A stretch of DNA of 64,000 nucleotides from Candidatus Saccharimonadota bacterium (GTDB taxonomy: Bacteria; Patescibacteriota; Saccharimonadia; Saccharimonadales; UBA4665). Both the position numbers and the translations under genes were made by a program. Below the pieces are notes generated by a model. That model saw only the letters and a program-made list of their open reading frames with translations, made no database searches and was not told the DNA's origin. This document shows positions 32,422-32,628 of the stretch, piece by piece (position 1 is the first letter of the stretch; every line of letters begins with the position of its first letter). Location of the stretch: the NCBI GenBank assembly GCA_003153395.1, contig PLYP01000002.1, positions 1-64,000 of the forward strand. Direction: 5' to 3'.

Positions 32422-32455
32422 AATTATCTCCATTAGCAACAGACACTTCAGGCAT

Positions 32456-32478
32456 AAAAAATACCCCTTCGTCGGGGC
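32456..32478 (-). terminator. Attenuator terminator upstream of proB
   Basis: Minus-strand RNA GCCCC-GACGAA-GGGGT followed by a U-rich run with six consecutive T, 35 nt before the proB start. The upstream segment GTCGGGG (32524-32530), which begins 3 nt after the leader-peptide stop, is perfectly complementary to CCCCGAC (32471-32477) in this hairpin, so a 7-bp antiterminator can form instead. Confidence 0.78.
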
Positions 32479-32532
32479 TATCTGAGCTAAGAAAGTTAAT
32501 TTATGAATGTAATGGTTAAAATACCCCGACTG

Positions 32533-32589
32533 CTATATTGGCAGCGGGCGTGGCAAGTTTAATTTAGTATATTGATACTGATAATTCAT
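32533..32589 (-). CDS. Proline-rich leader peptide of proB (18 residues)
   Basis: Short ORF starting close to the predicted transcription start, encoding MNYQYQYTKLNLPRPLPI with Pro at positions 13, 15 and 17. It ends 3 nt before the GTCGGGG antiterminator strand. Scarce charged Pro-tRNA would stall ribosomes over the Pro codons next to this strand. The combination of Pro codons, alternative pairing, terminator and a proline-biosynthetic gene is that of a leader-peptide attenuator. The exact pairing logic is inferred. Confidence 0.65.
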   Translation of the reverse strand: MNYQYQYTKLNLPRPLPI

Positions 32590-32599
32590 ACTTAAAGAT

Positions 32600-32628
32600 A
32601 TAATATTATATAACTTGGATATTGTCAA
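32600..32628 (-). promoter_or_regulatory. proB leader promoter
   Basis: TTGACA (32623-32628), a 17-nt spacer and TATTAT (32600-32605), near consensus on the minus strand. Transcription should begin within a few bases of the leader-peptide ATG at 32589. Confidence 0.75.

Follow-up and report, generated by a model that had tools for sequence, protein, structure and literature searches.

A probable proline-sensing leader-peptide attenuator in front of an orphan glutamate 5-kinase gene in Saccharimonadia

Introduction

Which signal governs transcription of a glutamate 5-kinase gene (proB) in Saccharimonadia, bacteria that make few amino acids? Ribosome-mediated transcription attenuators are well described from Escherichia coli, where they precede trp, his and, as the tRNA-synthetase case, pheST; to our knowledge, they are known mainly from Proteobacteria and Actinobacteria. 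A sequence-only reading of the 64-kb stretch of DNA analysed here (“the window”) had placed such an attenuator in front of proB, comprising a near-consensus promoter, an 18-residue leader, a GTCGGGG arm and a terminator containing CCCCGAC; all of these elements, including proB, were found in place. In our assessment, the element is very probably a ribosome-mediated transcription attenuator that senses the charging of tRNA-Pro. The evidence consists of its anatomy, its conservation and covariation, its folding at three ribosome positions, and the proline-related genes downstream.

Anatomy of the Element

The features of the locus are as follows:

34039–32714, minus strand: ugd (UDP-glucose 6-dehydrogenase), the gene 5′ of the element
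32628–32623, minus strand: −35 hexamer TTGACA; with the −10 hexamer included, 11 of 12 positions agree with the consensus
32605–32600, minus strand: −10 hexamer TATTAT, at a 17-nt spacer from −35
near 32593, minus strand: predicted start site, as expected from −10
32589 (ATG) to 32533, minus strand: leader ORF MNYQYQYTKLNLPRPLPI, 18 codons, with its UAG at 32535–32533
32553–32539, minus strand: control codons CCA-CGC-CCG-CTG-CCA (Pro-Arg-Pro-Leu-Pro), Pro being conserved across 15 leaders
32551–32541, minus strand: arm 1, overlapping the control codons, partner of arm 2 (fold, −13.2 kcal/mol)
32533–32523, minus strand: arm 2 GCAGTCGGGGT, immediately 3′ of the leader ORF, partner of arm 1 (protector) or arm 3
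32530–32523, minus strand: antiterminator part of arm 2, GTCGGGGT, partner of arm 3
32484–32481, minus strand: 5′ arm of an outer stem, core CAGA, just 5′ of the terminator; matching duplex in 15/15 leaders
32478–32471, minus strand: arm 3 GCCCCGAC, partner of arm 2 (antiterminator) or, in part, of arm 4 (terminator)
32478–32463, minus strand: terminator GCCCCGACGAAGGGGT, GCCCC-GACGAA-GGGGT, followed by ATTTTTT
32467–32463, minus strand: arm 4 GGGGT, 3′ arm of the terminator (fold, −9.8 kcal/mol)
32462–32456, minus strand: U-tract ATTTTTT of the intrinsic terminator
32443–32440, minus strand: 3′ arm of the outer stem, core TCTG, 3′ of the U-tract; matching duplex in 15/15 leaders
32421 (ATG) to 31618, minus strand: proB, glutamate 5-kinase homologue, with GGAG at 32431–32428
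31559–29235, minus strand: MMPL-family transporter gene, 58 nt 3′ of proB

The leader ATG lies about 4 nt past the predicted start site and lacks a Shine-Dalgarno sequence, and an A/T-rich spacer of 44 nt separates arm 2 from the terminator. Besides arm 3, arm 2 has a second, upstream partner in the stretch of Pro codons (A-CGCCCGCTGC / GCAG-T-CGGGGT, −13.2 kcal/mol); this helix, overlooked in the sequence-only reading, constitutes the 1:2 “protector” hairpin familiar from classical attenuators. Apart from the leader promoter, no promoter was seen 5′ of proB. A scan of the gap between proB and the MMPL-family transporter gene finds neither promoter nor terminator, and the two genes possibly share a transcript. 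The composite pattern of a promoter, an ATG-started short ORF, a terminator and an alternative complement of at least 7 nt occurs once in the 64-kb window, at the proB leader, and in none of 20 dinucleotide-shuffled windows.

Proposed Mechanism and Folding

RNA polymerase is predicted to start about 4 nt 5′ of the leader ATG, and a ribosome would then translate the 18-codon leader. With ample Pro-tRNA, it would reach the UAG abutting arm 2 and cover this arm, so that arms 3 and 4 could pair and transcription would stop at the U-tract before proB. With scarce Pro-tRNA, the ribosome would stall at the Pro codons inside arm 1, leaving arm 2 free to pair with arm 3, which would block the terminator and allow transcription of proB; proline limitation is thus the condition under which expression should rise. 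If the leader were not translated, the 1:2 helix would form and termination would be the default. Folding of the window RNA gives the corresponding structures at each of three ribosome positions, namely the 1:2 helix plus terminator without a ribosome, the antiterminator (−13.3 kcal/mol) with a ribosome at the Pro codons (arm 1 masked), and the terminator (−9.8 kcal/mol) with a ribosome at the stop codon (arm 2 masked).

Distribution of Homologous Leaders

Homologues were gathered first via proB homology and then by covariance models (R1, built from four leaders, and R2, built from fifteen), which are home-made and whose E-values are rough. The proB homologues in Saccharibacteria MAGs and whole genomes have the same leader. 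In an even rather than exhaustive genome sampling, 14 of the 393 genomes from the class Saccharimonadia reach 57 bits or higher, and the match after these is at 25.5 bits; R2, run on 380 genomes of the phylum, places only the window genome above 25.3 bits, and the three best of the remaining phylum matches, read by eye, are not leaders. Judged by sequence similarity and as sampled, the leader family is confined to the class. Most of the weak R1 matches (L109–L126) were rejected as ordinary terminators or coding sequence, with the exceptions of L115, a proB leader, and L112, a trpS leader; the R2 matches L131 and L133 are also trpS leaders.

Leader peptides from relatives include the following:

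L017: MNYLYQYTTSILPIPAPR
L002: MNYSYQYTSSVLPRPLPI
L004: MNYHYQYTASVLPRPLPM
L018: MRYQTIFSTLPTPMPI
L025: MVQYRFSALPAPLPI
L013: MVKRIYHISDLPLPRPI
L015: MCQTQLNITFSFPRPLPI
L016: MVYQHIFSVLPTPTPV

The close proB-carrying relatives L002, L004, L013, L015, L017, L018 and L025 have the leader; several distant proB genes are without one or have diverged Pro leaders. Some proB-carrying relatives (G063, G003, G011 and G030) show no recognisable leader, and G060 keeps the Pro codons and the 2:3 pairing and lacks a canonical terminator; both observations count against the attenuator reading.

Proline Codons of the Leader ORF

It had been proposed beforehand that an attenuator should retain its Pro codons and both pairings while its other codons vary, and this is what the 15 homologous leaders show, in support of the leader-peptide attenuator reading. 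Proline is encoded at 44 of the 45 control positions (three per leader; L115 and L129 were read by eye, the latter standing in for L108, which a contig end truncates), and all four synonymous codons are used: CCA twice, CCG four times, CCC six times and CCT three times at the first control codon, with CCA, CCG, CCC and CCT likewise occurring at the third. Between the prolines, the encoded residues differ and include Arg, Ile, Thr, Ala, Leu and Met. An LPxPxP-type ending is common to all 15 leaders, the N-terminal part varies freely, and variation at Pro1 and Pro3 is almost confined to third codon positions. Since proline is kept via all synonyms while the intervening codons vary, selection acts on proline and not on the RNA letters alone.

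A −10 hexamer is recognisable 6–10 nt ahead of the ATG in 13 of 15 leaders. No Shine-Dalgarno sequence—usual for attenuators, if not defining—precedes the leader ORF in 14 of the 15, with the ATG following the −10 by 4–11 nt; the ORF is likely leaderless, and the resulting dependence on leaderless initiation counts against the attenuator reading. In the three leaders of family f35 (L128, L115 and L129), the ORF has no stop before arm 2 and reads through it, with the C-termini LWQLG, LRQLGYVSE and TWQLGYVSE among them.

Covariation of the Competing Helices

Over the 15 sequences, 97.5% of the cells of the arm 2:arm 3 antiterminator are paired, and three of its pairs have changed on both sides (C-G/U-A 9:6, C-G/U-A 11:4 and G-C/A-U 13:2). 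Two-sided cells number 12, as against 3.6 in shuffles, and none of 500 shuffles reaches 12; when the register is slid, the value drops to about half or less in every case. In alignment A2, columns 38/87/98 change as a triple from G-C-G to A-U-A, so that one column of arm 3 covaries with its partners in arm 2 and arm 4 together. Such a triple change implies that both competing helices are kept and is expected only if arm 3 serves both. The terminator hairpin and its T-run are kept in nearly all aligned leaders. The 1:2 helix is present in most, in a shifting register, with 83% of cells paired and without covariation of its own.

An outer stem, with its 5′ arm just upstream of the terminator and its 3′ arm downstream of the U-tract, is found in 15 of 15 leaders in differing sequences (e.g., CACAGAC/GTCTGTG in L106 and GTCAGATCAA/TTGATCTGAC in L115), with a shuffle P of at most 0.05 in 12 of them. 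It can form only after read-through, and it reaches over the GGAG ribosome-binding site in some leaders (the window and L104) and spares it in others.

Alternative Explanations

A small-molecule or tRNA-binding (T-box like) riboswitch accompanied by a coincidental short ORF would also offer alternative terminator/antiterminator pairing, and proline T-boxes do precede proBA in Bacillus. We nevertheless regard this as very unlikely, given that Rfam reports no leader or riboswitch family at gathering score—only tRNAs in the window, L017, L018 and L025—that the T-box covariance model finds no match in a leader of only about 150 nt, and that conservation tracks the reading frame, as the third-position variation of Pro1 and Pro3 attests. 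Two plain tandem terminators ending ugd transcription (1:2 followed by TATTTT, and 3:4), with the GTCGGGG/CCCCGAC match as a by-product, would account for the T-rich runs after both hairpins (GGGGTATTTT and GGGGTATTTTTT). However, the hairpins are separated from ugd by a near-consensus promoter, the only one seen before proB, and leaders that follow other upstream genes retain this layout along with the Pro codons and the covariation. We rejected this hardly credible reading because of the promoter and the covariation.

The conserved LPxPxP C-terminus and the outer stem, which lies over GGAG in the window and L104, are both superfluous for simple attenuation and might instead speak for an arrest peptide sensing proline, or for control exerted mainly on translation by way of the outer stem close to the ribosome-binding site of proB. 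Against this stand the free variation of the residues between the prolines and of the N-terminal part, the near-universal terminator hairpin with its T-run, and the ribosome-binding sites left free by the outer stem in other leaders, making such control highly improbable.

Genes behind the Proline Leaders

The genes after the leader—proB and, in relatives, proS and proC—belong to proline metabolism or charging:

proB: window, L017, G001, G349, G223, G216
proB-proS: G014, G369, L018
proB-proC: G044
tRNA-binding-domain protein (PF01588) and proS: G196, G360
proS itself: G080, G413

In L100 and L102, a stand-alone tRNA-binding-domain protein (PF01588) takes the place of proB between the leader and proS. 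Pro leaders unrelated in sequence and with terminators of their own precede other proB genes (L007, L008, L010 and L014) as well as proS or X-proS (G016, G062, G085, G088 and G263); this convergence of unrelated leaders on proB and proS lends independent support to proline as the signal. In the window genome, proS follows another ORF at a distance of 22 nt and is not immediately preceded by a Pro leader. A second class consists of terminator-less Pro-codon uORFs right before proS (L191, L192, L195, L197, L199, L204, L207, L231 and L236), which end in PACR, PARR, PPRR or similar and hold the Pro codon within a CCGGCnnGCCGG-like hairpin.

The Orphan Glutamate 5-Kinase

The ProB protein of the window matches TIGR01027 with an E-value of 2.3e-45, under the curated cut-off, and contains an AA kinase domain (PF00696) and no PUA domain. 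Aligned to solved glutamate 5-kinase (GK), it retains the motifs VKVGT, ISS, NEND, GDND and GTGGMxTK. Neither proA nor proC is found in the window genome, which is 100% complete by estimate; among 24 genomes that carry proB or the leader, no proA exceeds the cut-off (one weak match, G014), and a convincing proC occurs in G044 alone. In the absence of proA and proC, proB is an orphan, whose induction on proline shortage would bring no obvious benefit; this counts against the attenuator reading. To call the element a control of proline biosynthesis is therefore somewhat inexact, the genome being without proA and proC and proS being a recurrent target in relatives. The tie of ProB to ProRS operons suggests a role in proline supply or charging.

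Comparison with Known Attenuators

The element shares with E. coli trp, his and pheST a leader ORF with control codons, the 1:2, 2:3 and 3:4 pairings, a stop codon adjoining arm 2 and a U-tract terminator; unlike these, it combines a proline signal, alternating P-x-P-x-P codons, a lack of Shine-Dalgarno sequence and an outer stem, and occurs in Saccharimonadia. It departs from the textbook in its apparently leaderless ORF, the outer stem across the terminator, the orphan proB, and tRNA charging as the theme conserved in relatives. In Bacillus, proBA has an upstream proline T-box, to whose RNA the tRNA binds directly without any leader ORF; there, too, proB is controlled by tRNA-Pro charging through antitermination, whereas the present element has a leader ORF and no T-box match.

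Among experimentally studied systems, attenuation by Pro codons has its nearest parallel in mgtP of the Salmonella mgtCBR leader, which, like the Pro-rich ORF of mgtA, senses charged tRNA-Pro via Pro codons and so controls transcription into the coding region (PMC3641672). These leaders have three Pro codons in a row and a sequence resembling a Shine-Dalgarno, and they serve Mg2+ transport/virulence genes (PMC3641672), in contrast to the proline metabolism and charging genes and the classical four-arm anatomy found here. For attenuators of tRNA synthetases, the nearest comparative work concerns Streptomyces trpS and leuS, whose leader-peptide attenuators were found by comparative genomics (PMC1262725); they likewise precede tRNA synthetase genes, but concern other amino acids in another phylum, and proline is never mentioned in that paper. 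For Saccharibacteria, Patescibacteria and the CPR, the literature searched, which lacked most subscription papers, yielded nothing relevant on either attenuation or leader peptides, and no earlier description of such control before proB or prolyl-tRNA synthetase genes in Saccharibacteria-type relatives.

Aromatic Leaders and Implications

In about 17 of 30 genomes, the trpS operon has upstream of it a leader of the FWFT/YWF type whose terminator has the form ACCGCC...GGCGG. The sequence-only reading had considered attenuation unexpected in a small-genome lineage; this expectation does not hold, as other tRNA synthetase operons there have attenuators as well. The window genome itself carries a leaderless aromatic leader (L261, G000:C6, about 1.4 kb upstream of trpS; MKQLRSIQNWFFFTDTFIGGKFAVN, terminator ACCGCCAATAAGGCGGTTTTTT), followed by a gene that, named by eye, resembles DAHP synthase and then by trpS. 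Trp-codon leaders with terminators were also seen before (X-)trpS at L112 (G009), L131 (G249), L133 (G085), L258 (G083), L266 (G091) and L270 (G071), several with a Trp-Arg pair located at the arm that complements the terminator.

We lean towards the view that, in Saccharimonadia, leaderless leader-peptide attenuators generally couple tRNA-synthetase operons to charging (proline for proB/proS, aromatic amino acids for trpS), so that attenuation there manages charging and the supply obtained by scavenging, not biosynthesis, and that the orphan proB has a charging-linked role other than proline synthesis. A GK with intact catalytic motifs and without ProA and ProC, which often shares an operon with prolyl-tRNA synthetase, is in itself an unexplained protein. 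If the attenuator reading is true, ribosome-mediated attenuation would extend to ultra-small, host-dependent bacteria of the candidate phyla, with proline as signal and leaderless leader ORFs, and the leaders would serve as ready-made indicators of proline (and aromatic) limitation in host-dependent epibionts.
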